NCBI RefSeq assembly: GCF_041381155.1
Contig: NC_091149.1
Span: forward strand, 8,820,609-8,884,608
DNA from: Argopecten irradians
Taxonomy: Eukaryota > Mollusca > Bivalvia > Pectinida > Pectinidae
DNA: 64,000 bases
Direction of reading: 5' to 3'
The notes beneath the pieces were generated by a model. The model had not been told where the DNA came from, ran no database searches, and worked only from the letters and a program-made list of their open reading frames with translations. This document shows, piece by piece, positions 16,266 through 61,991 of this stretch. Made by a program: the position numbers and the translations under genes. Every line of letters begins with the position of its first letter. Positions within the stretch are counted from its first letter, which is position 1.

Positions 16266-19200
16266 ATGCTGCTCGTCATATCTATTATTGGTTTCTTGAC
16301 CTTTGACCTTGTTCAAGCCAATGGACACTGCTGGTGTACAGACTCGGACCTAACAATACTGGCAGGTCCTTCCCATAATGCATCACCAGTGGATATCTTA
16401 AATTCCGGTTCCTGTCTAAGAAACTCTCAAATAGTACAGGAGGGACGATGGATAGAGATTCCTGAAAGTAATCGAAACAAGGTAAATGCATTCTATATCT
16501 TATTAAAGTACAGATTGTTAGTTTCACTTCATTTCATACAGGATCTGACAACATCCTACATGTATATGGGGTTATTTACATTACAGCATTCAACCCAATA
16601 AACGCACAGGGCACTTAAATATTGATACAAATGAAAAAGTGCTAATAAGTCAAAATTATTGCAAATCTATACCGTTTTATATAGTTTTGGCCCTTATGTA
16701 CGTGCATGCCTGGGCAATTGAAATTGAGGCCTCAAAAATGGGGGAGGGCGCTTATAAAGACATAGGCGCTTATTGGGTCGAATACGGTAATAGCTTTCAT
16801 TACATAAAGCACTATAAAATAACAAGAGTCCCACTATTGCAAGGCTCATTATAGGAATATACCGCATCTTCATAAAACAAATATACATTCACACACATAT
16901 AACGGGGTAGTACGTCAATATATGAACCTGGCTATCATAAGGACGCTAAGCAAACAAACCAACCAATCAAAAACTAACACATCCTAACTATGCATTACGT
17001 TTCCAATATTTATTAACTGTTTGTCATTTGATATTCAATTATAGGCTGGATTTGTATATCATACAGACGATATCCAGCTAACGAACTGCACATGTAAGTA
17101 CGACTTTACCGTATTTGAGCATAATTCAATTTTGCTTGTTACGAGCATTTTCATTGGCTTAAAAATTCACTTTATCAGCCCATAAAGGAAAAAATGGCGT
17201 CGCCGTTTGTAACGTTGCTTCTGATTGGCTGAGATGACGGTGTAGTGATTTTATTGACAAAAGAGTCCCAAAATGAATTTTGAATATTGAGATTATATTT
17301 AGTAAATTGAATTATAAGGATTAATTTGAATACATTTTTTATGTCATGGAGATATAACACAAAAATCTGAGTGTACTCTCATCATAAACCCATCATAAAC
17401 CGCTTCGCGGTTTATTTAGAGTACACTCAGATTTTTGTGTTATATTTCCATAACATAAAAATATATTCAAGTTAATCCTAAAATAAATGTTGATGTATTT
17501 CAAAATTATTATTCACACTTTATAAAGTGAAAGTAATATCGTTTCTATGTATGCATTTTCAAGTAATAAAACGGTATCGATAAACCCTTAGAACAACAAC
17601 AACAACAACAAGCCCAAAATTTATTAAAAAAACCAAACAAACAAAAACGAATACTGAAACTAGCTTTCTTTCACGTGGCATTAACGTTCATGATTTTCGC
17701 GATTAAGGACTACTTGCAAAAGTTGATCTCCGCGAATCATCATTCAAATTGATAACAGTGGCAGATATTTCAATTCAGGCTTTAAATTTGCGAACATTTA
17801 AGTCAACTTCGCAAACATGACTGGAAACTAATATCGCAAAAGTTAGAAAACGCGATAGAAATTTGCTTTTCAGTACACCGCTAAATCATTTTTACGACGT
17901 GAGTTTCGCTCACATAATAATGATGTCATAATTGGACAGTTACTTACCCGCATTAGAGGTAACAAATTAATATGTTAAGACGGAATACTGTTTATCTGTT
18001 AAACAGCGGCTCGTGTATCTACTGTATCAAAGAGAAACGAATGTGAACACAGTCACTGCACTGAAGCCTGCTGTACAAGAGCCCATCACCATCACGATGG
18101 TAAGAGAGAGGCGATTGTATTTGCCTGTAGATTTTGTAGTGTTAAAGTTATTTGTGCATAATTGGGCGAAAAGGCTGACATGATATTTTCTCTTCATTGA
18201 TCAATTGCAAACGAAAGGCTTTGATGAATTAAGCTAAATCCAAATATGAATTACTTTTAAAAAGTCCGCTCATCTATGATCCTCCACGTTACGCTCCAAT
18301 ACAAGATCTAACTAACCTTTGTTCGGGTCACCTCAGCATGTGCTATTTCCAAAATGTGGTTAACGTTTGGTAGCAAATAACATCTGACAAAATTTTTTTT
18401 ATTGATACATCAGTATATAGATTTGATTTTCCCAGAGTGTCATGACTGTCCTAGCCAATGCTGTAGCAGCATCGCTCCAGGTAAGTATGCTGAACAGTCG
18501 GATAATTTCCCTATGTTATTATATAAATACCACCTGCATTAGAGGGTGACAGTGCCTATTATTATACCTCAAGTGAGAATCCTGCATTCTGATTGGTCGA
18601 GAGATATTTGGTATTGTTCACTATCACACGGCAGTAAGCATTAGAACAATAGGAGACAATAGACATGATCGTAGCAACCCCCTAGCAACGGGCGATAGTG
18701 TATTTTTGACAGTGCAAAATATTGACCGCCCGAAAAAGATGCACACTCGTTTATTTTTTCGACGCCATCTTTGTTTTTTGAAAAGTAGCTTCAAAATTAC
18801 TGTAGCTATTTAGTAATAGTTTTGCCAAATTAGTCTATTGATCAATATGTTTTTTTTCCAAACTGAGGACGGAGCTTTACTTTTACATCTTTTAATTTAC
18901 CTTCCATGCTCTATATGTTTATCAACCCGTCGGTGATTAGGTGAACGGAAGACAAGCGATGTCAAGCGTCTTCGTGACTTTGCTAATGTTGGAAAGAGAC
19001 GACAGGGCGAAACCAAATTCATTAAATTTAACAAAAACGTTTAGATTTTAACAAACGCAAGAGACAAGACAAAAAGAATATTTCACTGAATGCTTATTGT
19101 GAGTAATCTTTTTTATAATGCAATGATAACTAGTGCTATTGAGTAGACGCTGATATGCTATTTTTACTGCCAGCGGTGAGTGTTCAACTTTTGCTAAAAT

Positions 19201-22200
19201 AAGTTAAATTGTTTCAATAGATTGCAAACACTTGAAAACTGCTTTTGTTTCTAAACTTTTGGTATAATAAAATAAATACTACCTGCATTAGAGGGTGATA
19301 GTGCCTATTGTCACCCCTCGGAATATCACTGTCACGCTTGACTTCGCCTCGGGTGACAGTGATACTACATGTACCTGCATTAGAGGGTGACAGTGTCACC
19401 CTGAGAATATCACTGTCTCCCTCTAATGCAAGTAGTATTTATCTGATTATACCACAAGTTTAGAAACAAAACTATTGAAACATTTTAACTTATTTTTTGC
19501 AAAAGTCTAACACTCACCATCAGCAGTAAAATAGCATATTCACTCAGTAGCGCTTATTACCATTGCATTATAAAAAGTACTCCAATAAGCATTCAGTGAA
19601 AGATTCTTGTTGTCTTGTCCCCTGCGTTTGTTTAAATCTTAACTTTTTTGTAAATCTCAATGAAGTTTTGTTACGTCCCGTCGTCTGTTTACAACATTAG
19701 CAATGTCACGAAGACGCTTGTAATCGCATGTCTCCCGTTCACCTTATCACCGACGGGTTCATAAAAGCCACATATAGCGCTTGGACGGTAATCGAAAAGG
19801 TGTAAATAGAAAGCCCCGTCCTTAAATAAAAATATATATATATATTGTTAAACAGACTAATTTGGCAAGACTATTACTAAATAACTCCGTAAATATTTTG
19901 AAGCGTCGCTTAAACAGACAAAGATGGCGCCGAAAAAAGAAACGAGTGCGTATCTTTTTCGGGCGGTTAATATTTTGCACTGTCAAAAATACACTATCAC
20001 CCGTTGGTAGTGGTTGCTATGAACGTGTCTATTGTCTCTAATTGTTCTAATGCTAACCCCCCTTCGTGATGTAAAATACCAACTATCTCTCGACCAATCA
20101 GAATGCAGGATTTTCACTTGCGGTATATTAACATTAATTTTTATTTGAATTAAAATTTATTGAATAAAGTTAAACGATCACAATGCATTTTAGACATAGT
20201 ATTTGATGTGTATATTGATCGACCAATTAATGTGTTATTGGAAAAAATTCTATTTAAAAACCCCATATATGTCCTCGGGTCACAATATTCACAGGCTAAC
20301 AGAAAGACACATGTTTCTGTAGGGAAACATTACATAAACTATAAAAATCATAGTTACATTGAATTTAAAATAGATGCCTATGCTACCGTATTGGTGGGGC
20401 ATGCATCATAAGGGGCCACGGCGGACATTGTTAAAACTACAACATATGTATCTACTATCACAATAGATTACAGTACATTTTATGTGAACCACTTGCAACT
20501 CCCGTGCTATCATTATCGGTAAGCAAATTTCACTAAAAGTAAAAAAAAACAACAAAAAACAAAAAAACAAAACAAATGTGAAATAAGGGAAAATGACATA
20601 CCTACGGCACTGTACTATAGTTTTTTCCCGATGTATGACAGGGTTTACAAATTATCACTAGATTTCTTCATGCATTCATACGTCGCCCTGTAATGAGATG
20701 AGTGTACTGAGTGTCCCGTAAATACGACATAGCTTTCTCGTAAACACCTAACAGACCCATGTTTCATTCTTTTTCTCCCATACTTATACAAAAAATGACG
20801 AATTACAGTTATATAAAAACATTTCCAAAGCGCTGCCATCATAGGAATATCACATTGCGTCAAAATCAATGACGTCTTCGACAATAGACACCGCATGTAA
20901 TGATGATGTATTGTCGTTGTCTTGCGCGTGTGAGCTGTCTTTTCCCTACCGCGGTAAAAGACAGAGTTATCTTTTCCCCAGCAACTGTGGGATAATCCTG
21001 TCAAGTATGGGAGAAACAGTTTTCTCTAATCATATAAATTGCATTATAGTTTGGTCATCCTGGAGTCACTGCAGTGGAACATGTGGGACAGGGACACGAC
21101 ATCGGACATGTACACAACACTGTTCTTCGACACTATCGTCCCACACACAGACAGAAGCATGCCATCATTTAATGTCGTGTCCAGGTAAGATAAGGCCATG
21201 TAGAATGATACGGTTTTCCATGCTTGTAAATTCTTATATTTAACAGGGTTCATTTTGCATGAAAAGAAATGCATGGGTTATTTCCAAGAATTCTTAACGT
21301 GCCATTAACAAAACAAAATATACAAAAACTTTCACAAACATTTTTAAAATTGAGGTACCACTGATCAAAAGGCCCCCTCAAAACTTAACCCTGATTTATT
21401 ATTCTTCAGTTTTAGGTGTTATAACGCCATTTTATTTAACAATAATTCTATTTCAAGATTATTATCAAAACACATACTAAAGAGTCTTTGATAGCTATTT
21501 TGAAGAATAAATTCAGTTTTTGTTCGAAATACATGTTATAGATTATCGACATTTCTTCATGTAAATATGGATTAAAATCGAGTAAAATTGAATACCCGCA
21601 GTTAATATTTTAGAGTCTACCAAGACGGTATAACACCATATGGACCGAATGAAATGTACTTAATTTTTTATATTTCATATGTAGTTCCTGTAAAATTATA
21701 TTTCATGTGAAAATCATTGCAACGATTTGTCGCTTTAACATTTGATATTGGAATATGGACTTGTAACTTTATGATTTTGCCTCCAAAAAGCATATGTCGG
21801 CATATAAGAGAGCCGAAATCTAGGGTTCAAATATTCCTGGTTTAGAATAAAGCGCCTTCAATCACCACCATGTTCAGTACCTTCGGGTTTTTGTCGGATT
21901 TCCGAATCGTATTACGTGACTGATGTTCACACGACCTGCACGTGGTGTCCCAGGTAACTAGCGTAAGCACACATGTGTTCGTTTACGTTTTCGTTCTGGC
22001 TAATATGATCAAATCGTGATGGTATATGTCAACAGAGCGAGTTTTTGAAACATCTAATTCACACATTGCCGTAATTCAATATTGTGTGTATCAAATATTG
22101 CATTATTTTCTTTGTAGATACAGTCTGCTTGGGTCGATCACATGATTTGTTTACGAAATATTGTTGGCATTTTTTCTTGGTTTCACAACTCTCGTGTTAC

Positions 22201-25200
22201 TCTCGAGGTCAGAATGATTCGGCATCTTTCGAGCCTATTTTTCACGTGTACACGTTATATTTATTAAAAAAATACTTCAAGTGCTGCAACTTTATAAGAA
22301 ATGGTAAAATTAGAAAGTTTAAACATCAGATAGACAGAAGCAAAGATAGGCCATGGGCTAGGAGGGTCCCACATGCTCCCCCCCCCCAAAAAAAAAAAAC
22401 CTCCGAACCAATATTTTTTGAACCCTTATGACCCTCTGATCACAAGTGGAAATGTTAACATTGCATAAGTTGGGATCAACTACCGGTTATGACGTCATCA
22501 AGATAGCCGCCAACTCGAAATTTACTAAAAAGTGAAAACAGTCATAACATTGACATTTTTCAACCGAAGTTGACAAATGAGGTATCAAAATGACCACAAA
22601 AGAACAACAAATACATATCGGGACCAAATAATCCAACATATGTAGTGATTTTTACGCAGGAAATGAAAAACTCGGATTTTAAGCTCAAAAATGGTGAATT
22701 CTTAGCAATTTTTTCATATTTGGCTTTACGCAGCAAAAATGTATTCAAACAGCAAACTATTATTTCTAATAAGTTTTTTGACCACTTACCGATCAGTTTA
22801 ATGAACAACAATAACAAAAATTAATGTTAACATTGTATAAGTTCCGGTTATGACGTAATCAAAATAGCCGCAATATCGAATTTCACTAAAAAGTGAAAAA
22901 TAGTAATAACATTGACATTTTTCAACTAAAGTAGACAAATGAGGTATCAAAATGATCATAATAGAACAATAAATACATGTCGGGGCCAAATAATCCAATA
23001 TATGCAGTGATTTTTACGCAGGAAATGAAAAAATAGGATTTTTAGCTTAAAATGAAGATTTTTTCAGCAAATTTTTCATATTAAGCTTGATGCAGCAAAA
23101 ATGTTTCCTAACAACAAATTATTATTCGTAATCAGTTATTTGATCTCTTTTCAATCAGTAAAAACAACAACAAAAACAAAAATATATATAAATGCAAAAG
23201 AGAATTATTGTTATACCCTTATTAGGTTTACAAAACATCATCGGGTGCGTAAAATGGGCATATGCTATTTTTCGAACTCCAAACCGTTGACACTACAGTT
23301 TCCGGGTGTATTATATTTTCCTTAAATAGAACATTGACTATTGACGATTTATAAATAGAAAACAGATAATGTAAAGTTGAAAGAATACCTTGGTGGGACA
23401 AGTCACAGTTTAACATAATCCATTTTCATGTTTAAAATTTTGGAGATTAGCAGCGTCTCACAAATAAATATTACAGCACAACACCTACTGATACGTAACA
23501 AATGTAACCTAAGCTAAGTCTGTGTTTCCGTTAATATCATTAACAGTTTCCAGAACGTTTGTGTCTTTGAAAATGAGCACATTTGTTGTTTATTTCCTTT
23601 GCATAGCATAAGCAAAACGTCAGATGGTTACTACAGTGTCACATATTTCTTTCACTGGTTCTTAATGAAAATCATTATCATTGTGCGTGCTTTCTCGCCT
23701 CACTGCTCCATCCACTGAAGAGACTCGGCATGTCTGGTAGCTGGTAGTCCAAATCAGAGTAATCGAGGTATCAGTATCAAATTCGTCGAAAGCCCGAGCG
23801 TCGTCTTCAATGTCGATGAGCTGATGTGACACTGCATTACCAGTGTTGTTCTAGCCTGTCATCTTTCATGACCCATCCATAGCCAGAGTTCATATCAAGA
23901 ACAACAGGTTCAGAGATGTGGGATCTCTCTCAGATTCTTTGATATCGTATATGCTGTTTCAGACTTCTCCGGCATAATGGAAATTACACCAGATCCACAT
24001 TCTTTGAACGGCGGAATTGGTTCTCCTTTGCACATAGCTTCATAATTCGTATGAAGTACCTTTCATCCATCTTGTGGTCCCTCGTGCGACCATAAATGGC
24101 ACAGGTGATATCATCGAGGTTATTAATTAGGCCATAAATGTTAAATGTTTTACATTTGTCCGACTTTTCCCACTCCCTTGAAGGTGCGTGTTGTGTCACA
24201 CATGGTGTATGGGTAAAGAGACCATTGAAGACTCCCCAGAAAATAGTTCTCTACAGTGCTTTTCAGACTTGGCAAATAGTGAACTTCACTGCAGACCTCA
24301 TTTATGACCTCAAAAAATCTTCCTGTGCCGTCTATGGTCACTGAGGGTTCACAAGAATGAGGAATTGAGCTTCATACGAATTAAGGAGAACCAGCTCAAC
24401 CCTTCGCAGAATGTGGATCTCGTGTCTTTTCGATCATGCCGGGGAAGTCTGGAACATCATATACGATATGTGAATCACAAGGTTGGAAACAGGAAGAGCT
24501 CCCACATCCCACAGGCCGATGTTTCTTATGGTAACTCTGGACATTGGCGATTGACACGTTAGAACCATGATTGCAACCCAGTTATGTAATGTCAGATTAG
24601 CTTATGATCTCATCTATCAGTTGGCGTTTTGGTGTAATAATTCATTTTGAGAAGCTACTAGGCTACAAAATATCGAACAAGAAAATTGATAATATTGAAC
24701 TCCCACTTTGATATTCAGCCAACTTTAAATTCAAATTTGCTAAGATTTCAATCGTCAATAGCCAATGTTATATTCAGGAAATTCTAAGACATCAGGAAAC
24801 TGTAGTGTCGTTGGTTTGGATTAAAATAACAATCATATGCCCTGTATATGCATCCGATGATGTTTTGTAAGCCAAATGATTTTTCATATATTTTTGTTGT
24901 TGTTTTTACTGATTGAAAAGAGATCAAATAAGATATAACGAATAATAATTTGTTGTTAGGAAACATTTTTGCTGCATCAAGCCAAATATGAAAAAAATGC
25001 TGGAAATTTACCATTTTTGACCTTAAAATCTTATTTTAATTTCCTGCGTACAAATCACTACATGTATTGGATTATTTGGTCCTGATATGTATTTGTTGTT
25101 CTATTGTGATCATTTTGATACCTCATTTGTCTTCTTCGGTTGAAAAATGTCAATGTTATTACTATTTTTCACTTTTTTTGTGAAATTCGAGATGGCGGCC

Positions 25201-26746
25201 ATCTCGATGACGTCATAACCGGAAGTTCATCCCAACTTATGCAATGTTAACATTTTGATTGGTGATCACTGGGTCATAAGGGTTAAGAAAAACATTGGTT
25301 CGGAGGTTTGGGGGGGGGGGTGCATGTGGGACCCTCCTAGCCCATGGCCTAAGATGGCATCGAAAAAAAGAAACTAGTACGCATCTTTTTCGGGCGGTAA
25401 ATATTTTGCACTGTGGTAATGCACTATCACCCGTTGCTAGGGGGTTGCTACAACCGTGTCTATTGTCTTCTATTGTTCTAATGCTAACTGCCGTGTGATA
25501 GTGTAAAATACCAAATATCTCTCGACCAATCAGAATGCAGGATTCCCACTTCAGGTATATTAACATCAATTTTTATTTGAATTAAAATGTATTGAATAAA
25601 GCTAAACGATCACAATGCATTTTATACATTGTATTGGATGTGTATATTGACCGACCAATTGATGTGTCATTGGGAAAAATATGTTAATTTGTTAATACAA
25701 AAAAAAAACAAATAAAACCCCCATATATGTCTTCTGGTCACAATATTCACAGGCAAACAGAAAGACACATGTTTCTGTAGGGAAACATTACATAAACTAT
25801 AGAAATCAGAACTACATTGAATTTGAAATAGATCTTAATTAGATTTAAAATAGGTGCCTTTGCTACCGTATTGGTGGGACATGCATCATAAGGGACCACG
25901 GCGGACATTGTTAAAATTACAACATATGTATATCTACTATCACAATAGATTACAGTACATTTTATGTGAACCAATTGCAACTCCCGTGCTATCATTATCG
26001 GTTAGCAAACTTCACTAAAAGTAAAGAAAAAAAAACCCAAATGTGAAATAGGGGAAAATGACACTGTTTCCACACCTACTGCACGGTACTATTGTTTTTC
26101 CCAATGTATGACAGGGTTTACAAATTATCACTAGCTTTCTTCATGCATTCATACGTCGCCCTGTAATGAGATGAGTTAATGTCCTGAAAAAATACTGAAT
26201 CAAATTAGTGTCACGTGAAGTAAACTTTTTATGTCGTAATTGCGACTGATTATCTCGTAATTACGACATAGCTAATTCGTAGATACGACATAGCTTTCTC
26301 GTAAACATCTAACAGACCCATGTTTCATTCTTTTTCTCCTATACTTAAACGAAACATGACGTAAATACAGTTATATAGAAACATTTGCAAAGCGCTGACA
26401 TCATAGGAATATCGCATTGCGTCAAAATCAATGACGTTTTCGACAATAGACACCGCATGTAATGATGATGTATTGTCGTTGTCTAGCGCGTGTGATCTGT
26501 CTTTTCCCTACCGCGGTAAAAGACAGAGTTATCTTTTCCCTAGCAACTGTGGGATAATCCTGTCAAGTATGGGAGAAACAGTTTTCTTTAATCATATAAA
26601 TTGCATTATAGTTTGGTCATCATGGAGTCAATGCAGTGGAACATGTGGGACAGGGACACGACATCGGACATGTACACAACACTGTTCTTCGACACTATCG
26701 TCCCACACACAGACAGAAGCATGCCATCATTTAATGTCGTGTCCAG
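16266..26746 (+). CDS. Gene B: SH3b-like, two Cys/His modules, duplicated TSP1; no C-terminal domain
   Basis: Six exons recognised: 16266-16481 (signal peptide, then HCWCTDSDLTILAGPS; SH3b-like), 17045-17093 (AGFVYHTDDIQLTNC), 18007-18099 (Cys module CEHSHCTEACC followed by HHHHDG), 18436-18480 (second Cys module CHDCPSQCC), 21050-21184 and 26612-26746 (near-identical TSP1 exons, WSSWSHCSGTCGTGT and WSSWSQCSGTCGTGT). Phases 0,1,1,1,1,1 are compatible and all borders are AG/GT. The ATG follows TGCTTTTCTTCTCCAG, a strong acceptor, so a 5' UTR intron is likely. The acceptor for exon 3 was chosen at 18006 because nearer AGs give stops in frame. No C-terminal exons follow before the inverted junction at 31289, so the gene is truncated, ends in an unseen exon, or splices on into gene C. 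Confidence 0.65.
17150..17500. mobile_element. Foldback element in gene B intron 2
   Basis: Relative of the element at 8741-9000. The arms converge on a tight hairpin at about 17365-17440, where GAGTGTACTC and its complement flank AAACCGCTTCGCGGTTT, followed by AGATTTTTGTGTTATATTTCC. The outer end carries AAATGGCGTCGCCGTTTGTA. The frame 17175-17360 on the minus strand is repeat sequence. Confidence 0.7.
17896..17996. mobile_element. Degraded CRE-type MITE in gene B intron 2
   Basis: Shows TTTCGCTCACATAATAATG, a TGATGTCAT variant, TACTTACCCGCA and the end TTAAGACGGAATACTG. It ends about 10 bp before the exon 3 acceptor at 18006. Confidence 0.5.
18566..20128. mobile_element. Long foldback (palindromic) element in gene B
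   Basis: Two arms of about 700 bp, roughly 18566-19266 and 19440-20128, are reverse complements of each other. Examples are TGCATTCTGATTGGTCGAGAG against CTCTCGACCAATCAGAATGCA, and TTTTTCGGGCGG against its complement. The centre holds several copies of CTGCATTAGAGGGTGACAGTG in both orientations. The right end of this element, from 19921, is also the start of each 5.5-kb tandem unit. Confidence 0.8.
20868..21010 (+). repeat. Dispersed repeat upstream of TSP1 exon (copy in unit 1)
   Basis: CGACAATAG, then GAGCTGTCTTTTCCCTACC, ending near GGGATAATCCTGTCAAG. It lies about 40 bp before the TSP1 acceptor. The first half of the open frame 20869-21243 is this repeat rather than protein-coding sequence. 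Confidence 0.65.
21050..21184 (+). CDS. Gene B TSP1 exon, copy 1
   Basis: 135-nt phase 1-1 exon: acceptor TTATAG, donor GTAAGA. It encodes WSSWSHCSGTCGTGTRHRTC with the Trp pair and CSGTCG core and closes on SCPG. Six cysteines match the TSP1 pattern. The copy at 26612-26746 differs in this segment by His to Gln plus a silent change. Confidence 0.9.
23984..24199 (-). pseudogene. Degenerate repeat-borne ORF fragment, minus half
   Basis: The 71-codon frame contains NNLDDITCAIYGRTRDHKMD and RYFIRIMKLC. It resembles the middle of a repeat-associated protein family common in marine invertebrates, in which an I/LYG motif precedes a Cys/His region. The plus-strand fragment at 24345-24562 repeats part of it in inverted orientation and carries what looks like the continuation. 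Both are short and broken. Family assignment is tentative. Confidence 0.35.
24345..24562 (+). pseudogene. Degenerate repeat-borne ORF fragment, plus half
   Basis: Frame with SFIRIKENQLNPSQNVDLVS then SCRGSLEHHIRYVNHKVG. Its first part mirrors the end of the minus-strand fragment at 23984-24199 and the rest would be the downstream segment of the same protein. Together they form an inverted pair around a centre near 24270. Same arrangement in the second element (29503-29718 and 29866-30082). Confidence 0.35.
26430..26575 (+). repeat. Dispersed repeat upstream of TSP1 exon (copy in unit 2)
   Basis: Counterpart of 20868-21010 with a few substitutions (for example GATCTGTC instead of GAGCTGTC), again about 40 bp before the TSP1 acceptor. 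Confidence 0.6.
26612..26746 (+). CDS. Gene B TSP1 exon, copy 2
   Basis: Second 135-nt phase 1-1 TSP1 exon with intact acceptor TTATAG and donor GTAAGA, 5562 bp after copy 1. If both are used, the protein has two TSP1 domains; if only one is used, the frame still holds because the exon is symmetric. Confidence 0.88.
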
Positions 26747-29502
26747 GTAAGATAAGGCCATGTAGAATGATACGGTTTTCCATGCTTGTAAATTCTTATA
26801 TTTAACAGGGTTCATTTTGCATGAAAAGAAATGCATGGGTTATTTCCAAGAATTCTTAACGTGCCATTAACAAAACAAAATATACAAAAACTTTCACAAA
26901 CATTTTTTAAAATTGATGTGCCATTGGCCAAAAGGCCCCCTCAAAATTTAACCCTGATTTATTATTCTTCAGTTATAGGTGTTATAACGCCATTTTATTT
27001 AACAATAATTCTATTTCAAGATGGTTATCAAAACACACACTAAAGAGTCTTTGATAGCTATTTTGAAGAATATATTCAGTTTTTGTTCGAAATACATGTT
27101 ATAGATTATCGACATTTTTTCATGTAAATATGGATTAATATAGACGGTATAACACCATATGGACCGAATAAAATGTACTTAATTTTTTATATTTCATATG
27201 TAGTTCCTGTAAAATTATATTTCATGCGAAAATCATTGCAACGATTTGTCGCTTTAACATTTGATATTGGAATATGGACTTGTAATTGATGATTTTGCCT
27301 CCAAAAAGCATATGTCGGCCTATAAGAGAGCCGAAATCTAGGGATCAAATATTCCTGGTTTAGAATAAAGCGCTTTCAATCACCACCATGTTCAGTACCT
27401 TCGGGTTTTTGTCGGATTTCCGAATCGTGTTACGTGACTGATGTTCACGCGACCTGCATGTGGTGTCCCAGGTAACTAGCGTAAGCACACATGTGTTCGT
27501 TTACGTTTTCGTTCTTGCTAATATGATCAAATCGTGCTGGTGTTTGTCAACAGAGCGAGTTTTTGAAACATCTAATTCACACATTGCAGTAATTCAATAT
27601 TGTGTGTATCAAATATTGCATTATTTTCTTTGTAGATACAGTCTGCTTGGGTCGATCACATGATTTGTTTACGAAATATTGTTGGCATTTTTTCTTGGTT
27701 TCACAACTCTCGTGTTACTCTCGAGGTCAGAATGATTCGGCATCTTTCGAGCCTATTTTTCACGTGTACACGTTATATTTATTAAAAAATACTTCAAGTG
27801 CTGCAACTTTATAAGAAATGGTAAAATTAAAAAGTTGAAACATCGGATAGACAGGAGCAAAGATAGGCCATGGGCTAGGAGGGTCCCACATGCCCCCCCC
27901 TCCCCGAAAAAAAAACCTCCGAACCAATATTTTTTGAACCCTTATGACCCTCTGATCACAAGTGAAAATGTTAACATTGCATAAGTTGGGATCAACTACC
28001 GGTTATTTCGTCATCAAGATAGCCGCCAACTCGAATTTTACTAAAAAGTGAAAACAGTCATAACATTGACATTTTTCAACCGAAGTAGACAAATGAGGTA
28101 TCAAAATGACCACAATAGAGCAACAAATACATATCGGGACCAAATAATCCAACGTATGTAGTGATTTTTACGCAGGAAATGAAAAACTCGGATTTTAAGC
28201 TCAAAAATGGTGAATTCTTAGCAATTTTTTCATATTTGGCTTTACGCAGCAAAAATGTTTTCAAACAGCAAACTATTATTTCTAATACGTTTTTTGACCA
28301 CTTACCGATCAGTTTAATCAACAACAATAACAAAAACTAATGTTAACATTGTATAAGTTCCGGTTATGACGTAATCAAAGTAGCCGCAATATCGAATTTC
28401 ACTAAAAAGTGAAAAATAGTAATAACATTGACATTTTTTCAACTGAAGAAGACAAATGAGGTATCAAAATGACCATAATAGAACAACAAATACATATCAG
28501 GACCAAATAATCCAATATATGTTGTGATATTTACGCAGGAAATGAAAAAAATAGGATTTTAAGCTTAAAATGAAGATTTTTTCAGCAAATTTTTCATATT
28601 AAGCTTGATGCAGCAAAAATGTTTCCTAACAACAAATTATTATTCGTAATCAGTTATTTGATCTCTTTTCAATCAGTAAAAACAACAACAAAAACAAAAA
28701 TATATAGAAATGCAAAAGAGAATTATTGTTATACCCTTATTAGGTTTACAAAACATCATCGGGTGCGTAAAATTGGCATATGCTATTTTTCGAACTCCAA
28801 ACCGTTGACACTACAGTTTCCTGGTGTATTATATTTTCCTTAAATAGAACATTGACTATTGACGATTTATAAATAGAAAACAGATAATGTAAAGTTGACA
28901 GAATACCTTGTTGGGACAAGTCACAGTTTAACATAATCCATTTTCATGTTTAAAATTTTGGAGATTAGCAGCGTCTGAAAAATAAATATCACAGCAAAAC
29001 ACCTACTGATAGCGTAACAAATGTAACCTAAGCTAAGTCTGTGTTTCCGTTAATATCATGAACAGTTTCCGGAAAGTTTGTGTCTTTGAAAATGAGCACA
29101 TTTGTTGTTTATTTCCTTTGCATAGCATAAGCAAAACGTCAGATGGTTACTACAGTGTCACATATTTCTTTCACTTGTTTTTAATGATAACCATTATCAT
29201 TGTACGTGCGTTCAAGCCTCACTGCTCCATCCACTGAAGAGACTAGACATGTCTCGTAGCTGGTAGTCCAAATCAGAGTAATCGAAGTATCAGTATCAAA
29301 TTCGTCGAAAGCCCGAGTGTCGTCTTCAATGTCGATGAGCTGATGTGACACTACATTACCAGTGTTGTTCTAGCCTGTCATCTTTCATGACCCATCCATA
29401 GCCAGAGTTCATATCAAGAACAACAGGTTCAGAGATGTGGGATCTCTCTCAGATTCTTTGATATCGTATATGCTGTTTCAGACTTCTCCGGCATAATGGA
29501 AA

Positions 29503-29718
29503 TTACACGAGATCCACATTCTTTGAACGGCGGAATTGGTTCTCCTTTGCACATAGCTTCATAATTCGTATGAAGTACCATTCATCCATCTTGTGGTCCC
29601 TCGTGCGACCATAAATGGCACAGGTGATATCATCGAGGTTATTAATGAGGCCATAAATGTTAAATGTTTTACATTTGTCCGACTTTTCCCACTCCCTTGA
29701 AGGTGCGTGTTGTGTCAC
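29503..29718 (-). pseudogene. Degenerate repeat-borne ORF fragment (element copy 2, minus half)
   Basis: Counterpart of 23984-24199, differing in the visible frame by Trp for Arg after KMDE. The near identity dates the tandem duplication as recent relative to decay of the ORF. Confidence 0.35.
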
Positions 29719-29865
29719 ACATGGTGTATTGGTAAAGAGACCATTGAAGACTCCCCAGAAAATAGTTCTCTTTGGTGCTTTCCAGACTTGGCAAATAGTG
29801 GAACTTCACTGCAGACCTCATTTATGACCTCAAAAAATCTTCCTTTGCCATCTATGGTAACTGAG

Positions 29866-34577: not shown

Positions 34578-34611
34578 CATACAGAATTGATTTGTTTAAA
34601 ATTTAGCTACT

Positions 34612-40683: not shown

Positions 40684-40694
40684 AAATGGTAATA

Positions 40695-40700: not shown

Positions 40701-40794
40701 GGGTAACTAGGACTTGTCTTGTTTGTTATGATATTCTATACACTCGCTAGTTGTTATATGTATTAAAAGGCAAAAACGACACATACCATTAATA

Positions 40795-49000: not shown

Positions 49001-50733
49001 ATGTTTATAAGGAACCAGTGTTATCTGGGAAACAATAGTTGATATTACTTCCTTGACCAATATACAGAGAAGTAGTTAGCTATACACATGATACGGATAT
49101 CTGATAGCAACCTTGATGGGGAATGAACATTATTACATGATAACCGTGAAGCATTGTAAGCGTGTTTTTTTATAAAAAAAACATGTTTTTTTATAAAAAA
49201 AATGTTTTACTGTTCATCAAGAGTAAAGGGAATCTGATCATTCTGCTTAAAACGTAAATAATTATTTTGACTCCATTTCTTAAAAGATAAATGTTTCACG
49301 CTCTGGTGACCTTTGCATATAATGTGACTTTTATATTCTTTTTACATGCATGTTAGTTCAAATTTATTTTGACTGTCCGCACACTGCCTACATCAGCTGC
49401 AAATGGCATTTCGTCACGACATGCCTATGTATCTAGCATGTTATGCTCACTCTTGCAATTGCCGCTGTCAGGAAAATTAAAGATACATATGTAGTATATT
49501 TAATTTGATTGGTCAATTTGAAAGGTTGCAAGAACGTGACCCTGCATTGAGTGCTATAAAATCTTATATGAAACGGATTAAGAATAAAATTCTGTATTTT
49601 AATCAGATTAAAATAAAATAATGCCAGAAAGAAAACAACCGCGTGTATTGTCATTTTCCGACTGTGTACAAGGAAATCGACATGGTGAATATGCATCTAG
49701 ATTTTCGTGAATTCTTATATATATTACTGTTTTAATGCGGGAGGATGGACGATTTCAAGATAAAACACTATTAATCAATTCTAAAATAAAATTGATTTTC
49801 CAATTCTTTATATTTTTGAATGAAATTGTTTGAACGCATATACTCATTGGTAACATTTTATCCCTTAAATGTGACATATGGCATGCTTTCAATACATGAA
49901 TATCTATTATTGTGTAAGAAATGGTTTAAACGTCAGACTAAAAGATAAAAAAACAACATTATGTTCGATTTTCTATCATTGAATTCTAATGAAAGGAACA
50001 ATTTTTACAGGTACAGGGAAACTGTGCCGACATACCGATGTATTCCCCTCTGTTTACGTTCTATAACGGAAGTGGACACGATTTAGCCGGTATATTTGGT
50101 GGATGTGACTCGGATGGAAATTTCAAGGTCAGTGCTGGGAATCAGTAAATATTGGTTGTATTATTTCGTCTTTGCATATTACAGAGTTATGCACCTTGAG
50201 GGTAGGTATCCATTGTGACATCATTATTTTGTGGGCGCAATTCACGTTGATTTCTCCGAAAAGTATGACGTTACGCTCGCAAACACATGACGTCACAATC
50301 AATACCTACCCACAAGGGCACATAACTCTATAAAATGTATGTACAGAATATACCGATTTATTGTCAGGAATTGTTGTGCGTAAGAAAATACAGGTACACG
50401 CGTGTGGCAAATCGGCTTAGATTTAAATATGCGGTTGAACTGCAAAAATGATATGACATTAAATCAAGAGAAAGTAGTATTTTCTGGAAAATATTTCTAT
50501 TCATTATATCAAATTATTAATTTGAATTCATCAAAAGAAAAAAAAAAACGATTTTAATCTAACTGTAATTACCATTAAGACCTATTGAATTCAATTTAAC
50601 ATTTCACTTTGAGTGAAGGTGTTGATATTCCATTTTACAGGTCATCACGGCAGCATGTAGTCACCAACCTGATATTCAACACGTCACAAATAGCACGTCA
50701 TACGTCAGTCACATATTTCGTGTTAATTGGTAA
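43017..50733 (+). CDS. Gene D: secreted SH3b-like, two Cys/His modules, degenerate NlpC/P60-like domain
   Basis: Complete seven-exon gene, 780 nt, 259 aa: 43017-43226 (signal peptide MLFAVFLVCFLTINFTVA, then CLCAQSDIPILA; SH3b-like), 44089-44137, 44901-44993 (CSSHCMTSCC plus HYHHSHHG), 45487-45534 (CSTCHSSCC), 47402-47571, 50011-50127 and 50641-50733. Phases 0,1,1,1,0,0 agree. It has no TSP1 domain: the Cys module joins directly to the C-terminal domain (HVCNKESVVQAVA, NWVKGLK, VQGNC, FTFYNGSGHDLAGIF, ending HIFRVNW). The V-x-GN turn after W-x2-G is the best match to BPSL0067-type amidases. The catalytic Cys position reads Ser and the His position Leu. ATG follows ATTTTGTAG, suggesting a 5' UTR intron. 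AATAAA overlaps the stop codon. Peptidoglycan recognition is an inference from SH3b plus the amidase-like domain. Confidence 0.83.
44436..44710. mobile_element. Short inverted-repeat element in gene D intron 2
   Basis: Mirror of 2372-2647, with termini AGTGGGCGAGTTCGGGCGC and its complement. Confidence 0.7.
45032..45117. repeat. Hairpin in gene D intron 3
   Basis: Mirror of 1966-2050. In this copy the right half of the inner stem reads GGAAACAG instead of GGCAACAG, weakening it. Confidence 0.65.
45540..45930. repeat. Minisatellite at right edge of inverted duplication (gene D intron 4)
   Basis: Copies of TGTAATTTGATAAAGTCATA followed by CACGTATGTATACTA, degenerating toward the right end. 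It starts directly after the exon 4 donor. Sequence beyond 45930 has no counterpart at 1-1203. Confidence 0.85.
45931..47401. other. Gene D intron 4 remainder: repeats, no exon
   Basis: Holds a GGCGGCCATTTTT hairpin (46064-46089), a block at 46280-46680 shared with both 5.5-kb units (about 21975-22330 and 27495-27840; its frame 46295-46636 is therefore repeat-derived), and a stretch from 46690 to 46880 resembling intron 6 of genes A and C. No TSP1 exon is present here, unlike the equivalent position in genes B and E. Confidence 0.6.
47745..48990. mobile_element. Foldback element split by a LINE insertion
   Basis: The parts 47745-47855 and 48934-48990 rejoin to give the same element as 17150-17500 (AACCTGAGTGTACTGTTAAT, then ACGCCATTTTTCCTTTATGA, then GCTGATAAAGTAAATTTT). 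The break carries TCCTTTATGA on both sides of the LINE. Confidence 0.7.
47856..48933 (+). mobile_element. 5'-truncated LINE 3' end in gene D intron 5
   Basis: Fragments of the reverse-transcriptase C-terminal region are readable: FWKYVLGAWSRLENC and SVWYNNDIKMGG (frame 47883-48131), then LQWLQFRISHDILTTNSLLF (frame 48397-48648), with frame breaks between them. Phrases of this type occur downstream of the RT domain in animal non-LTR retrotransposons. A 3' UTR-like stretch, AATAAATGA near 48890 and an A-run to 48933 close it. TCCTTTATGA flanks both ends (47846-47855 and 48934-48943) as a 10-bp target duplication. Confidence 0.75.
50167..50350. mobile_element. CRE-containing palindromic MITE, best copy (gene D intron 6)
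   Basis: About 184 bp and largely self-complementary: TTTGCATATTACAGAGTTA, CCTTGAGGGTAGGTATCCA, TTGTGACATCATTATTTTGT, a GCAATTCACGTTG centre with GTATGACGTTACGCTCGC, then ACACATGACGTCACAATCAA, TACCTACCCACAAGGGCA and TAACTCTATAAAATG. Each full copy brings two or three TGACGTCA-like (CREB/ATF-type) sites. It starts 40 bp after the exon 6 donor. Confidence 0.78.
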
Positions 50734-53597: not shown

Positions 53598-56500
53598 ATG
53601 CCTTTGTTTTGGATTTTGTATCTTTTATCCTTGGTTTCCATGGTAACTGGAGTGCCTAATGATTGTGATCATTGTCGTAATCAATGCTGTAACGACCATC
53701 GTCATCATTATGGTAAATATCATCTTTGCAGTTTCATTTCTATTCTGGAATGAACATTTGAACAAGAGGCCCAGGGGGCTGAATCGCTTACTTTTTTGAT
53801 TAAGTAAACATGACAAAATGTCAAATAAGTTTTAAAAATTACAATTATGGATTACAACCTAAATGTTGTGTGTGCGGAATTTGGTCAATTTATGACGTTC
53901 TGAAGAAATCACTCCTTCGTTTTCAAAAATGCGACTACTAAAGGCTCATGGCGTATCAATTCATTGAGCTCGTTTAATTAAATTCCATTATACATAGCCA
54001 CCATCTCTTTATTTAATATTGATATTTATCTTCTGATTAAAGATACTTACATCTAGAGTATATTATAACAGAAACATAAAATTATGCAGTAGTGAACGTA
54101 TAAAATTAATGGAAATTACACCATTATCATAACGTTCTTTTCAACGACAAATAAATGGTTTATGGGGCTATAATGTTCTATATCTTGAATAATTTTAAAA
54201 TTTGGTTCGATTTTCTTGCAAATTGACTGAATAAACGCAAACATACCATTACTTTTCTTTAAAAACTTTAAATCTTAATTTTGAGTTACTTTCATTGTTT
54301 TATTTTTAATTTTTCGTATAAGTTTACTTTCATCGTTTATGTTGGTACCACGAAAAAGTATCACCAAAATTAAATTATAAAATGAAAGTAAACATTTTTC
54401 GTGAACAGCCGTTAATATATTACATCTCTTGAACAGTTTATATATAATACAATATTTTGTTTATTATTTTTATTATTGAGAAGATTTACATAAGAATGTA
54501 CACAAAACATATAAGAAATAACTCAAATCAATCCAGAATCAAATGATGGTCAAATTTTTTAAAACTTTGACAGAATATGCTCAACGTTGTAATTCGATAA
54601 AACAAGTATAAAGAATATTGAATATAGGGGACAACCACATCAACCAACCACTTGTATTTTTATATGTTACTTCGCCATATTGACTATCATAAACCGATTC
54701 TGTTCAGATTGTTCGAATTGTGAAGCAAATTGTTGTATGGCACGCTGGTAAGTATTCTTAATTCATGTTTCCTGTTGCAAGAAGACTTATTCGTATCTTT
54801 TGCGTATTTTCCGCACCGGGGTACAACATGCGGGAAGCTAAAATTTGGCTTTTTCTTGAATTTTGTAAAATACTTTCCAGATAAGCTGCACCGGTTGCCC
54901 GAGAATAAAAAAAAATGCCACATATGTTTGTGATTTTATTTGGAAAGAGAGGATAAGGTTTATTAAAAAACCATATACAATTCTCATTATCATGTATGGT
55001 TTGGTATAATAAGGATGCATGTAGCTCTTTTTGCTTTTTTCCTGTTATTCTGTTATTATTTGAAAAAATCTTACAACGCATAGCCAGCATGTTTTTAATT
55101 GGTAATAGTTTCCACAAATAGACCGCATTAGACTTCATCTGACATAAAAAGGCGTCGTCCTTATTCATATTAAACTTTTAAAGATATATTAAGAATGTGC
55201 TATTTCTCTTTGTAATAATGAAGCTTTAGCACTCTTATAAAACTGTCTCACTAAGCATTCCAAAACATAGCCAGCGTGTTTTTAATTGGTAATAGTTTCC
55301 ACAAATAGACCGCATTAGACTTCTTCTGACATAAAAAGGCGACGTCCTAAATTATATCAAACTTTTAAGATATGTTAAGAATGTGCTATTTCTCTTTGTA
55401 AAACTCTCTCACTAAGCATACCAAAGCATATTAAGAATATAAGATATTAAAAAGTTATTTAAATAAAAATCAACCTCTGAAATAATGTGTTCATTCTCCA
55501 TGCAAATTTTGAAATCTTGCACTTTTATAGTGCATCCTCAATGAAGCATACCATCAAATAACCCTGGCCAATACTAAACGTTGAATAATCAGTAACTACG
55601 ATATATTTGCAAACGTGATATTTTTGACATTTTTATAATTATTGATCAAAGTAAATGGAGGTTGGAGCACCTGGTCACATTGGCACCCATGTAGCAGAAC
55701 TTGTGATTTTGGGTATAAGATCCGTACCCGTGTCTGTAACAGCCCCCGACCACTCAATGGAGGACATGCTTGTCATGGCTTTGCAATTGAAAAAATGTCA
55801 TGTTCAACCATCACCTGCCCGAGTAAGTTTCAAAATTCATGAATCATGGACATGTGCATCCCCGATATTCCATTAGGTAACTATCACTATCGTAAATATA
55901 TCCAGCTCCGGAATAAATCACATCAAGACTGAAGGCTCTGTGTGTGACAAAAGATGAGACAAGTAGAATGTCATATCGATATACATCAAAAGAATCCACG
56001 GTGACAATGTGATTGATTGTATGGCTTTGCAGTTTAGTGTCGCTCACTACACGATATTCAAAGGAAGATTATATATCTGTGATTGACCAGCTTTTATTCC
56101 TGAGGGCTTTCACTTTTTTTATTTTTTTTTAATTCATGCTTTATTAAAAAAATACACAACATAACATATACAGAAGATACATGAAAGACAAATACAATAG
56201 ACGTTACATTTGAAGAATTATTTCAAATTGCATACTTCAACGTACGCATTTACAGGCATCTTATTAACATCACAAAATACACACATATATTACCACTCAC
56301 ATACAAGATCTATCAAGGGTTATTTCCGTTCCTACAAATGCTTTCAGTTTTCCTGTGACACATTCCAGAAGTGGATATTATGACAGAAGTACAGTAGTAA
56401 CACCAAGAATATATATCATACATGTATATAGAAATGAAAACAAAACATATGTTATTAAGCCAGAATTTCTCAGGATTTCGTTATTGCATATCTTAGCAGT

Positions 56501-58978
56501 AAAAGAAAACTAGTCCTAGGTAATATAACATGCATTTAATAGTACAATGTATAAGATTGTTTATTCCATACGACATTATATTTAATCAACTAACTAAAGG
56601 AGCTTTTGCTTTTGCAAGAAAAACTTTTAAGATCGATGTAATTTTGACTTAACTATATATAAAATAAGTAAAAATTTAGGAAACAAATTACATATTACTG
56701 AGGAATTTGTGCTCTTTTGTAAATGACTGACTTTGTACATATTGTATTGATTTAAATTGCTTTCATTTGACATTGATAGAAAGCATTCTCTCCATCAACT
56801 TGTAGCCGTCCGTTTACCGCTTTCAAAACAAACTTTTCCTTATTCTATAACGTTTCGATTTCTCTAATTCGTTTAGGCTGACCTACACTTCTATCATTAT
56901 TTACATGTTATTCGTAAAGTTTAAAACAAGGCAATGTGTTTTACAATAACCACTTAAATCTATGAAGAAATTCGCTGGTATCCATTATGAATATCTTCTT
57001 GCATAAATCATATTTTTCGCTTATTTTAATTCCAGGGAGGTTTAAATCCTTAACAGTCAATACATGCAACACAGTGTGCACATGTATGCACTTTGTTTAT
57101 TTATTGAGTGCTTTGTACAGCCAGGGTCATGTAAGGACGGCCTCTAATGTATGCGGTGTGTAGTGTATGAATTGCGTGGCGCGCGTTTTTGGAGACTGCG
57201 ATATAACCATGTTACGTCTTCACGTATAATGGAGTTCTTGCTTTTTTGTAGTGCCATATCTCTGAAACATGCCACCAAAGATACCAAGAAACACATACTT
57301 AACCAGTCAATACTAAATATAGCTTACTCAGAAATGGTAAAGTTGAATTCATATTTGTCATTAAAGCAACAACGGTTACCCATGTATATGACCATGTTTG
57401 CAACAAAGAAAGAGTAGTCCAAGCGATCGCTTTCAGCATTAAAGAAAACTGCACAGGATCTTCTCACTTGCATCACCTACAGACACAAAAGTTCGTTGTG
57501 GACAATTGTGATGCCCCTGTGTCAACCGCTAGCTGGGTAATGGGAACGAAGGTATGCTTGTTGATAAATACTCTTTGTATTTCGTTCCGTCTTTATGTAC
57601 CCAATCTGTAATTTCTATTTCTAACTTTGTATTTATTACGTATAATGTATGAAACCGGATGTAACCTCGTTCTGGTAATACAGCATGGTCACAGAATGTT
57701 AGGTATCTTGTTCTAAAAAAATATTAGAACCCAAAGTCATATATCCGATATTCTCTGGTTGAATTTTATTGAAATAAAGAAAACTTTCTTGAATAGGTAC
57801 AAGGAAACTGTAACGATATCCCGATGTATTCCCCTCTATTTACGTTCTATCACGGAAGTGGACACGATTTAGCCGGTATATTTGGTGGTTGTGACTCGGA
57901 TGGAAACTTTAAGGTCAGTAGACTTTATTAGCAGTTACAATAATATTAAACAATGTTTTTCGAGTCCATTGTAACAAGAAAAGCGGCCTTTGCACTTGAT
58001 AGTTTCCTTAAAAATTAATTGGTATGAATAACCTGTAAATGTTGTGGCGTTTAGAACCAATATTACAAATATACATACTAGTTAGTAAACAAGTAACGTG
58101 TCCATGTGATGGTTTCCAATTATTAACAACACAACAATAAAACAGTTTTTGTATCCCAAATAGAACAAGGAAAAAAAACTTTTTTATTGTTATACTAGTA
58201 AATAAACATAGAATCACGTCTCAACAATTTCAATTATTACATTAGAAATGCAATTCAATTTTAATCTATTGAATTACAACAAACATGGTAAACAATTATG
58301 TATCTTTCCTCATCAAGGAGTTACCTCCCCTTTTTTCATAAATCTAACCATGTATATACATGTATGTTTTTTACTAATACTTGTTTCTTTGTACCATCAA
58401 TATCAGCAAAAGACGAATATAGGCAATGTCTGATTCTAATTATATTGACATTTTTTTTCTCATTTTTTTTTCAGAAACGTATATACATTCAGATTGGAAA
58501 CTCCTTTTTGTCTTTGTTGATGAACCTCCGGTTCATTGGCATTTTTTCTTGGCTGACTATCTAAGTTTATTCTTTAAAACATGATATTTTGCATATATTG
58601 ACGAAGTTTAAACATTATGTTTGATGTAACCAGAAATTACAAAATGTTTATATAATATATCAAAGTTTTTTTCAGCTATATTTAACTATTTAAAAGTTTA
58701 TCTAAAAACCCCTAAGCACATACAATGTACAGAGGTACTCTGCCGATCGGAAAGATGGAGGAGGTACCTATCTCTATGTATATATATTTCTGCTTTTTGT
58801 CCATAAAATAATTGGAAATATTAAAATTGAAATATGAATGATACTATATGTATATTTATATTAGCATATATAATATCAATTACAGGTTATCATGGATGCT
58901 TGTGGCCGTAATCCGCGTATCCTTGACGTCACAAACACTACGTCGTTTTTTAATCACATATTTCGTATCAAATGGTAA
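53598..58978 (+). CDS. Gene E: secreted Cys/His module, TSP1, degenerate NlpC/P60-like domain
   Basis: Five exons give an open 681-nt frame, 226 aa: 53598-53712 (signal peptide MPLFWILYLLSLVSMVTG fused to a Cys module CDHCRNQCC with HRHHYG), 55652-55822 (TSP1, WSTWSHWHPCSRTC, the longer form with a CNSPRP loop), 57367-57551 (HVCNKERVVQAIA), 57797-57913 (VQGNC, FTFYHGSGHDLAGIF) and 58886-58978 (HIFRIKW, stop). Phases 1,1,0,0 are consistent. There is no SH3b-like exon, and the signal peptide is attached to the Cys module, unlike B and D. A 40-nt exon-like segment at 54708-54747 would break the frame and is left out. The catalytic Cys position of the amidase-like domain reads Arg, the His position Leu. 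The closest paralogue of the C-terminal domain is gene D. AATAAA overlaps the stop. Confidence 0.8.
54708..54747 (+). other. Out-of-phase exon-like Cys module in gene E intron 1
   Basis: Acceptor TGTTCAG and donor GTAAGT enclose 40 nt encoding CSNCEANCCMAR, clearly the second Cys module seen in genes B and D. Entry is phase 1 but exit is phase 2, so splicing it to the TSP1 exon would shift the frame. It is either a decayed exon, joined to an unseen exon, or used in a truncated isoform. Confidence 0.6.
55075..55440. repeat. Local tandem duplication (about 186 bp) in gene E intron
   Basis: ATAGCCAGCATGTTTTTAAT with the following TTCCACAAATAGACCGCATT recurs 186 bp later with few changes, and a third partial copy (CTCACTAAGCATACCAAAGC) follows near 55410. 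Confidence 0.75.
57090..57160. mobile_element. SINE 3' fragment in gene E intron
   Basis: CAGCCAGGGTCATGTAAGGA followed by CGGCCTCTAATGTATGCGGT. It lies about 200 bp before exon 57367-57551; the open frame 57151-57417 spans both and is not coding before the acceptor. Confidence 0.55.
57797..57913 (+). CDS. Gene E exon: conserved core of the C-terminal domain
   Basis: 39 codons, phase 0-0, differing from the gene D counterpart (50011-50127) at only two residues (Asn for Ala after VQGNC, His for Asn after FTFY). The flanking introns are unrelated, so this is either strong constraint or gene conversion. Confidence 0.85.
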
Positions 58979-60332: not shown

Positions 60333-61991
60333 TCACCACCTAACCGTGAAATAGTTAAATGGATCATTTGGATACTTGGCATTGGTTGATACTGTCGTAT
60401 TCGTGGGTATATCCATTACCTCAGCTACGCCGTTACAGGCTCTGGTCGCCATCTTAACACAAAGTGAAATTGATATAAGCAATGGTGTATGTTTGTGCTA
60501 TACAGTAAACCCCAGATAATCCGGATACAGATAGTCAGGAAAACTCTTAGTCCGGACCGAAATTTCAGGGAACGGATTACCGTATCTACACCTGTTGACT
60601 AAGAACACACAAGACTTGGCTGTCCGGAAAATTCGTAATCCGGACGGTTGAAGTAGATGACATCGAATGTTTCCGGATTATCTCTCTTGATATTTATTTT
60701 GTATTTTACTATATAAAGGATGAGTTTCGTTTCGGGTTTATATAATATATATTTGCAGTTTTACTGAAATTAACGAATTAACACATTAAACATTTTGTAG
60801 ATATGCGAATTTTGCATTAAGAGGAATCTGTTCACCTACATTATCAAAGCAGGGCAGTTTTAACGAACGGACTTATAAGTGTAAGAGTGGTGCGGGACTT
60901 GTCTCTGGTGAAGTTACCTTGAATCCCGTGCTTGTATATCCGATGAAGATACCACTAAAACCTTCATGTGAACTGTCCTGTTGGTAAGCATTGTTCCAGA
61001 AGGTCGCTATCGGTGTGTACGGTGGGATTGTTTTACTCCCTGTCATGTCAAATCCGACCTGTTATGTTGAAATGAAGTATAAAAACATTTAAGTAAAACA
61101 TGACGTCGTAAAATGGTGATTAAGGGGAATGGGTACTTCATAACTATTTTTCCGTCTGCATATTACACATGCAGGTAGGTATCGATTGTTACATCAATAT
61201 TTTGTGAGCGGACTTAATGTCGTTTTCTCTAAATGTATGACGTTACACTCTAAATGGCTGATGTCACAATCAATACCTACCTGCAAGGGTAAATAATACT
61301 GTTATATGTATTGTTGTACGAAACTAGACATCGTTGTGGGCGGATCATGTGTCAAATTGCGATTAAAATCTCAGTTTATCAGCTGTTCAACCAATAAGTT
61401 GTTCCGATGTTATACAACTTATGGATGATATGATTCCGAAGATTTTGGAGCAATTGTGATAACGATTGATTGACGACAGTTTTTGCTACTAAACATCTGA
61501 ACTTCCTGAAGATACTTAGCAAATATGAGAAATTGTTTCCCAATTCCATCTTCAGATTTAGTTATATGTGTATGTATACCAGAGCTTACTTGAATACAAA
61601 TAATGTCTAAACTGAATGTGAAGAAAATATGGTTATTATTATCATCAAACAATTTAATTATCACGGAATGTAGTGCGAGGGGCATGTTTGTTGTATTGGT
61701 TAGAGATATACGAACCTCCGGGTTCACAAAATGGGGTTAATGATTAAAAAGTTTGCTTCACATGTATAGCAATTGCTCTTAGAATACCATTACACTTTTC
61801 TGTATTTTTTACCGACAATCCTCTCTTCCAGTGATCTGTGCCTGTTATACTGGTACAATGGTCATGTAGGAATTGGTCACTCCCTGATGACCATACGTCC
61901 GGACACTGGGGTGGATTTGTGGTGTCTAATTCTGCCAAGGCCTGGACGGTGGATATTTTGTTGCAGATATGCGCGGATCCTTGTAGATCAT
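60333..61991 (-). CDS. Gene F (3' partial): degenerate NlpC/P60-like C-terminal domain
   Basis: Three minus-strand exons: 61991-61813 (phase 1 in; GSAHICNKISTVQALAEL, DHWKRGLS), 61058-60918 (VGFDMT, IPPYTPIATFWNN, SSHEGFSGIF) and 60452-60333 (ending YFTVRW, TGA). Phases 1/0/0 and AG/GT borders match genes A and C, its closest relatives. The middle exon has lost both cysteines that A and C keep (NCN to FDM, IECT to IGYT), which would unpair their partners. Upstream exons (signal peptide, TSP1) are not seen before the inverted-repeat element and minisatellite to the right, so the 5' part is outside the window, far away, or lost. The gene converges on gene E. Confidence 0.75.
61147..61310. mobile_element. 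CRE-type MITE in gene F intron
   Basis: Copy with CTGCATATTACACATGCAGG, GTATGACGTTACACTC and TGATGTCACAATCAATACCT. The outer arms are partly eroded. Confidence 0.65.

Follow-up and report, generated by a model that had tools for sequence, protein, structure and literature searches.

A cluster of scallop genes for secreted mosaic proteins with SH3b-like, Cys/His, TSP1 and Tae2-like modules

A 64,000-nucleotide stretch of the Argopecten irradians genome (RefSeq assembly GCF_041381155.1, contig NC_091149.1, positions 8,820,609 to 8,884,608 of the forward strand; the whole stretch is called the window here) carries exons for SH3b-like domains, small cysteine-rich modules, TSP1 repeats and an amidase-like C-terminal domain, in combinations that appear to differ from gene to gene. 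The question raised by this locus is what kind of proteins these genes and gene parts (designated A, B, C, D, D', E and F) encode, and whether their C-terminal domain is an enzyme. The best explanation is a cluster of about eight scallop genes for secreted mosaic proteins. Their C-terminal domain looks like a distant relative of the Tae2/BPSL0067 family, at marginal scores, and is probably not an enzyme; a role in soluble microbe recognition, with a disarmed Tae2-like module, stands for us about evenly between true and false. Part of the apparent shuffling of modules is probably the product of an inverted duplication and of the edges of the window.

Exon modules and extent of the cluster

Exons were read from the sequence, their splice sites were checked by script, and signal peptides were recognized by eye (Table 1). 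The models of A, C and E splice to uninterrupted proteins of 272, 272 and 226 amino acids, and B joined to exons 47402-50733 gives one of 350 amino acids; all 22 introns in these four models are GT-AG, and spliced C and spliced B are letter for letter the NCBI predictions P0003 and P0004. A preliminary description of this DNA had the internal modules as phase 1-1 exons, which is true of the Cys and TSP1 exons of A, B, C and E, but not of the SH3b exons (the first ends in phase 0 and the second is 0-1) or of the C-terminal domain (1-0, 0-0 and 0-stop). Among the candidate donors of the wider region, a phase-0 donor is present at the same place in the first domain exon of all eight copies of the domain and likewise in the second, and 19 of the 21 TSP1 matches have a phase-1 candidate; the match at -3.4 kb has none and that at 67.5 kb has phase 2 only.

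The cluster reaches beyond the window on both sides. A profile built from the F, C and E copies of the C-terminal domain and run over 264 kb (the window and 100 kb on each side) finds five further copies, so that the domain is present at eight places (G2, G1, A, C, B/D, E, F and G3). Last exons are seen for seven of these, five of them found with a two-sequence profile of the E and F last exons, and the eighth, that of G3, is visible in NCBI P0005, to which G3 corresponds in a by-eye comparison and which has SH3b, two Cys modules, TSP1 and the C-terminal domain. Upstream of the domain, the cluster genes carry SH3b, paired Cys/His modules and TSP1 repeats. Phase-1 Cys-module exons number nine in the real sequence and zero in each of ten dinucleotide shuffles; a looser pattern, applied to the real sequence only, finds 12, all of them inside these gene chains by place and strand. 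Genome-wide there are 506 TSP1 candidates, 150 of which were scored.

Several of the combinations listed in the preliminary description are probably pieces of longer genes. The SH3b and two Cys modules that it gave for B and D' are present, but B also has two TSP1 exons and is joined by NCBI to the amidase-like exons that had been assigned to D. To the left of D' and on the same strand are four TSP1 matches from -1.4 to -14.5 kb (one incomplete) followed by the G1 domain, and because of this order D' and G1 are probably one gene that continues past the left edge of the window. The F chain seems to extend to the right, where the F domain is preceded on the same strand by SH3b matches at 75.1 kb and, weakly (E 0.052), at 72.2 kb, by two Cys modules (70.5 and 69.5 kb) and by three TSP1 matches (68.5, 67.6 and 65.6 kb); the TSP1 exon at about 67.6 kb in this candidate chain shows a phase-2 donor only. 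The claim that these are modular secreted proteins of one family, in which SH3b and TSP1 are combined with an amidase-like C-terminus, is supported, and the exons, their order and the motifs are present. The makeup described for A and C, each with two TSP1 repeats and the amidase-like domain, and for E, with one Cys module, TSP1 and that domain, also stands. The full set of SH3b, two Cys modules, TSP1 and amidase-like domain is present in the NCBI models of B, G3 and the Pecten maximus protein P0006, and by exon order in F and D' plus G1 also; this architecture is common, and the reduced forms (A, C and E) look derived.

SH3b is a cell-wall binder in bacterial and phage proteins. A profile of five scallop SH3b copies finds the autolytic lysozyme 4KRT, which we take to carry SH3b, at E 4e-5, the best of ten matches, the other nine being at 0.12 or worse; 2KYB and 2KT8, presumably SH3b structures too, are both at E 1.7. 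Pfam SH3_3 matches three of the five members, with a best E of 2.3e-5; the bit scores obtained for G3 (12.4-16.9) and Pecten (12.5) lie below its cut-off of 27. The scallop copies share the SH3b pattern with these cell-wall-binding domains, but differ in having four conserved Cys residues, a phase-0 intron that splits them and a fusion to TSP1. The Cys modules at 18007-18099, 44901-44993 and 53598-53712 have His-rich tails (HHHH, HYHHSHH and HRHH), suggesting a metal site. PF00090 (TSP1) scores at or above 21.6 bits in four of five proteins (P0002-P0005, at or over the cut-off; P0006 has 18.4). TSP1 repeats are what these proteins share with thrombospondin-1-like and properdin-like proteins, from which they differ by the Tae2-like C-terminus; Pfam gave no non-TSP1-type thrombospondin domain and no ADAMTS or complement domain.

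Relatives are present in Pecten and Mizuhopecten, and the domain of Mizuhopecten P0001 is 79% identical to that of C. The six proteins at E up to 10, among 1933 candidates from a search that requires shared five-residue words and limits length, are all from scallops. A protein search with a single domain sequence gave one candidate and no scored match. The family had been called probably undescribed, and among the papers listed by literature searches, most of which were not examined in full, none was seen to deal with this scallop protein family; NCBI, however, already has predictions for some of these proteins, labelled 'uncharacterized' or 'thrombospondin-1-like' (P0002-P0005 are from A. irradians).

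The C-terminal domain and Tae2

The NCBIfam model BPSL0067 (NF033857) matches three of six copies of the C-terminal domain (best E 6.8e-6) and two of six whole proteins (P0002 and P0003). In three profile searches Tae2 (6WIN) is the sole match in the PDB, at E 0.015, 0.0071 and 0.26, and the 6WIN stretch itself matches the BPSL0067 model at E 7.5e-27. None of seven reversed or shuffled domain controls (of eight decoys, shuffled G2 was left out) matches BPSL0067, and their best match to any model is at E 0.026. The scallop domain and Tae2 have a core of roughly 60 residues in common, in which W, G, TF and G-x-x-x-x-F positions are conserved.

The histidine of the Tae2 motif GNHAAFF, which by comparison with NlpC/P60 enzymes we take to be catalytic, aligns to a hydrophobic position in all three printed alignments. 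Across the nine copies in our broadest alignment, A10 (seven from the cluster and two from other scallops), the residue located there by motif is F, Y, Y, I, F, L, L, I and I. Six Cys residues are present in eight of the nine copies, and look disulfide-bonded; F has four, and because it lacks both those at the positions of Cys 4 and Cys 5, these two are suggested to pair. With the aligned histidine replaced in nine of nine copies and six apparently bonded Cys residues, the domain is probably not an enzyme. The term 'amidase-like' in the preliminary description should be limited accordingly: the resemblance is to Tae2/BPSL0067, at marginal scores, and enzyme activity is unlikely. From Tae2 and BPSL0067 the scallop domain differs in the missing histidine, the six Cys residues, the introns and scores below the family cut-off.

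Among the closest parallels is Dae2 of Ixodes ticks, a secreted animal protein with a Tae2-family domain, which according to PMC11347951 kills Gram-positive bacteria as a working antibacterial effector; the scallop domain lacks the aligned histidine and is joined to SH3b, Cys and TSP1 modules, a comparison made by description. Transfer of Tae to eukaryotes is mentioned in a paper on bivalve lysozymes of phage origin (PMC5303276). Another bivalve protein with a bacterial-type SH3b is the Mytilus peptidoglycan recognition protein (PGRP) HE609081 (PMC3308963); its other part is PGRP/Amidase_2. A search of viral contigs with the 6WIN stretch gave one locus, L029, whose overlapping frame looked on inspection like that of a DNA polymerase sliding clamp, and the match was set aside as chance.

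Inverted and tandem duplications

The segments 1210-16464 and 31284-45868 form an inverted duplication with pieces 91-98% identical and a 15-kb spacer. The right arm lies within the B intron at 26747-47401 (in P0004), and contains gene C, which is the copy of A, and a copy of the SH3b-Cys-Cys half of D', the part called D in the preliminary description. A 35-bp minisatellite is present at the outer end of each arm (1209-1531 and 45553-45933), beside the second Cys exon. A direct tandem duplication of about 5 kb (20717-25755 and 26278-31289, 95-96% identical) doubled the TSP1 exon of B, and the TSP1 segments 20717-21575 and 26278-27138 are 96% identical.

Ten exons compared between the arms (the first Cys exon being taken from 44922, not 44901) have 11 synonymous differences in 252 sites and 15 nonsynonymous in 930 (dS, 0.044; dN, 0.016), with splice sites intact, and substitutions outside exons are at about 3.4%. 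Seven of the 15 nonsynonymous changes are in the signal-peptide exon of A and C. The TSP1 and domain exons of this pair have nine synonymous and four nonsynonymous changes, which suggests constraint; frame and splice sites are also kept in A and C. Between D and D', the changes in the SH3b and Cys exons are four nonsynonymous and zero synonymous, and give no signal of constraint.

The preliminary description had D as a gene of its own, with SH3b, two Cys modules and the Tae2-like domain but without TSP1. The D exons at 43017-45534 do splice in frame to 47402-50733, giving an open protein of 259 amino acids that is absent from the NCBI model, and neither D nor D' has lost its frame or a splice site. 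However, P0004 assigns the last exons to B and skips the 5' exons of D, and this 5' half arose recently as an inverted copy of D' and shows the substitution pattern just given, so that an independent gene D is doubtful.

Table 1. Positions of the modules and related features (kb values are on the scale of the window, negative to its left)
Feature	Position and exon phase	Strand	Remark
Gene B, signal peptide and SH3b	16266-16481 (ends phase 0), 17045-17093 (0-1)	+	Part of P0004 match
Gene B, two Cys/His modules	18007-18099, 18436-18480 (1-1)	+	
Gene B, TSP1 exon 1	21050-21184 (1-1)	+	
Gene B, TSP1 exon 2	26612-26746	+	In tandem copy
Tae2-like domain	47402-47571, 50011-50127, 50641-50733 (stop)	+	3' end of B in P0004; D in the preliminary description
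Gene C, signal peptide, TSP1 x2, Tae2-like (272 aa)	34612-34735, 35321-35446, 37075-37194, 38264-38445, 39269-39409, 40558-40683	+	P0003
Gene A, signal peptide, TSP1 x2, domain (272 aa)	13118-12995, 12453-12328, 9960-9841, 8724-8543, 7727-7587, 6434-6309	-	Inverted duplicate of C
D, 5' half	SH3b 43017-43226, 44089-44137; Cys 44901-44993, 45487-45534	+	Inverted duplicate of D'
D', 5' half	SH3b 4134-3925, 3058-3010; Cys 2182-2090, 1592-1545	-	
Gene E (226 aa)	Signal peptide and Cys 53598-53712; TSP1 55652-55822; Tae2-like 57367-57551, 57797-57913, 58886-58978	+	
Gene F, Tae2-like domain	61991-61813, 61058-60918, 60452-60333	-	P0002 has this domain too
Copy of B exon 1, truncated and inverted	31284-31515	-	Cut at duplication border
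Domain G2	-47.6 to -50.6 kb		Left of window; by profile
Domain G1	-15.3 to -17.3 kb		Left of window; by profile
Domain G3	87.5-90.9 kb		Right of window; by profile; P0005

Among other features of these genes, we note that E has at 54709-54748 a 40-nt exon-like stretch (CSNCEANCC) that resembles a Cys module, is of frame-breaking length and is probably decayed or skipped. P0002 gives F an N-terminus without SH3b, despite the ordered SH3b and two Cys exons upstream, and the database model may be incomplete. Just upstream of the amidase-like exons of F, on the minus strand, is a long tandem array at 62849-64000, built for the most part from an 18-bp unit, which has 51 copies at 63071-64000. Gene B contains at 18559-20131 a self-inverted repeat of about 1.6 kb that matches its own complement imperfectly, at 79% identity; it is related to repeats at 25.4 and 30.9 kb and is possibly a mobile element.

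Possible microbe recognition and the other readings

Several results weigh against the Tae2 relationship and the proposed microbe-recognition role. Every score on the Tae2 side is below the curated cut-off, the best being 26.3 against 27 bits, and the alignments stop short of the catalytic cysteine of Tae2. The E of 0.26 for 6WIN is all that a narrower alignment gives, A10 matches nothing in the PDB at E 10 or better, and the F sequence used by itself picks out a lipase there (E 0.011) and not Tae2; Pfam gives no domain match beyond FtrD-like at 0.008 on one copy. An AlphaFold model made from exon fragments has a predicted local distance difference test score (pLDDT) of 34 overall, with the domain not resolved, and one made with six homologues has 31-60 by block in the C-terminal domain and 65-86 by block of ten in the two TSP1 repeats. 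Foldseek with the first model gave 32 matches, none at E 0.001 or better; with the second, the best 50 of 260 matches are mainly TSP1-bearing proteins and include no Tae2, the leading ones being thrombospondin and properdin, owing to the TSP1 repeats. The SH3b call within the window rests on alignment to G3, F and Pecten (the F copy joined from two exons by eye in alignment A11), because the SH3b of B has no Pfam match and that of D only an unrelated one. To these is added the lack of a constraint signal in D and D', and TSP1 repeats are typical of matrix proteins and often not immune.

These same points, the typical place of TSP1 repeats, the marginal and alignment-dependent Tae2 scores and the failed structure prediction for the domain, would fit proteins that serve in the extracellular matrix, the shell or adhesion and have no microbial target, the resemblance to Tae2 being remote or due to chance. 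We regard this as unlikely, as the SH3b resembles that of the autolytic lysozyme and two libraries agree on the Tae2/BPSL0067 family. It is improbable that the inverted duplication is an assembly error in which a second haplotype was placed in reverse: arms of about 15 kb with this identity by piece and this level of substitution outside exons could arise in that way, but the reverse order, the repeat-rich spacer and the minisatellite at the outer border of each arm fit a real duplication. Active secreted peptidoglycan amidases like tick Dae2 are the least probable reading and a very poor prospect, for although the domain is similar to Tae2/BPSL0067 and an invariant Cys immediately precedes the first helix of the domain in both low-confidence models, the general place of a papain-like catalytic Cys (PMC10318531), that Cys is among the six that look disulfide-bonded and the position of the Tae2 histidine is F, Y, L or I throughout.

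For the soluble microbe-recognition role, a plausible scenario is that the ancestral protein had a signal peptide, SH3b, two Cys/His modules, at least one TSP1 repeat and a Tae2-like papain-fold domain, and that this domain lost the histidine of the enzyme and gained three disulfides. Microbe binding is plausible from the module content: peptidoglycan or related cell-wall sugars would be the ligands of both SH3b and the disarmed Tae2-like domain, the Cys modules with their His tails might carry a metal, and the TSP1 repeats would provide contact with host matrix, haemocytes or humoral partners. The proteins would then serve in haemolymph or mucus as soluble factors of a recognition or opsonin-like type. 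Because the introns around the middle modules are in phase 1, the numbers of TSP1 and Cys modules could change by duplication with the frame intact, and the recent inverted duplication would have placed a second set, made up of the whole of C and the D' half with SH3b and two Cys modules, in the B intron, where it would be able to splice to the last three exons of B. In a fuller history, a bacterial type VI amidase domain would have entered the scallop lineage or that of its ancestors, been disarmed, been stabilised by three disulfides and been fused with bacterial-type SH3b and animal TSP1 modules. The outcome would be a growing family of soluble receptors for microbes, with a module content that changes by tandem and inverted duplication via phase-1 introns. 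This history is tentative, and we lean somewhat against it as a whole.

If the link to Tae2 is true, a domain of an antibacterial weapon would have kept its scaffold, lost its enzyme function and become a module of secreted mosaic proteins in an animal. This would be a parallel to the catalytically inactive PGRPs, and would provide testable candidate peptidoglycan receptors in a farmed bivalve, with the recent duplication showing how such mosaics may be reassembled.

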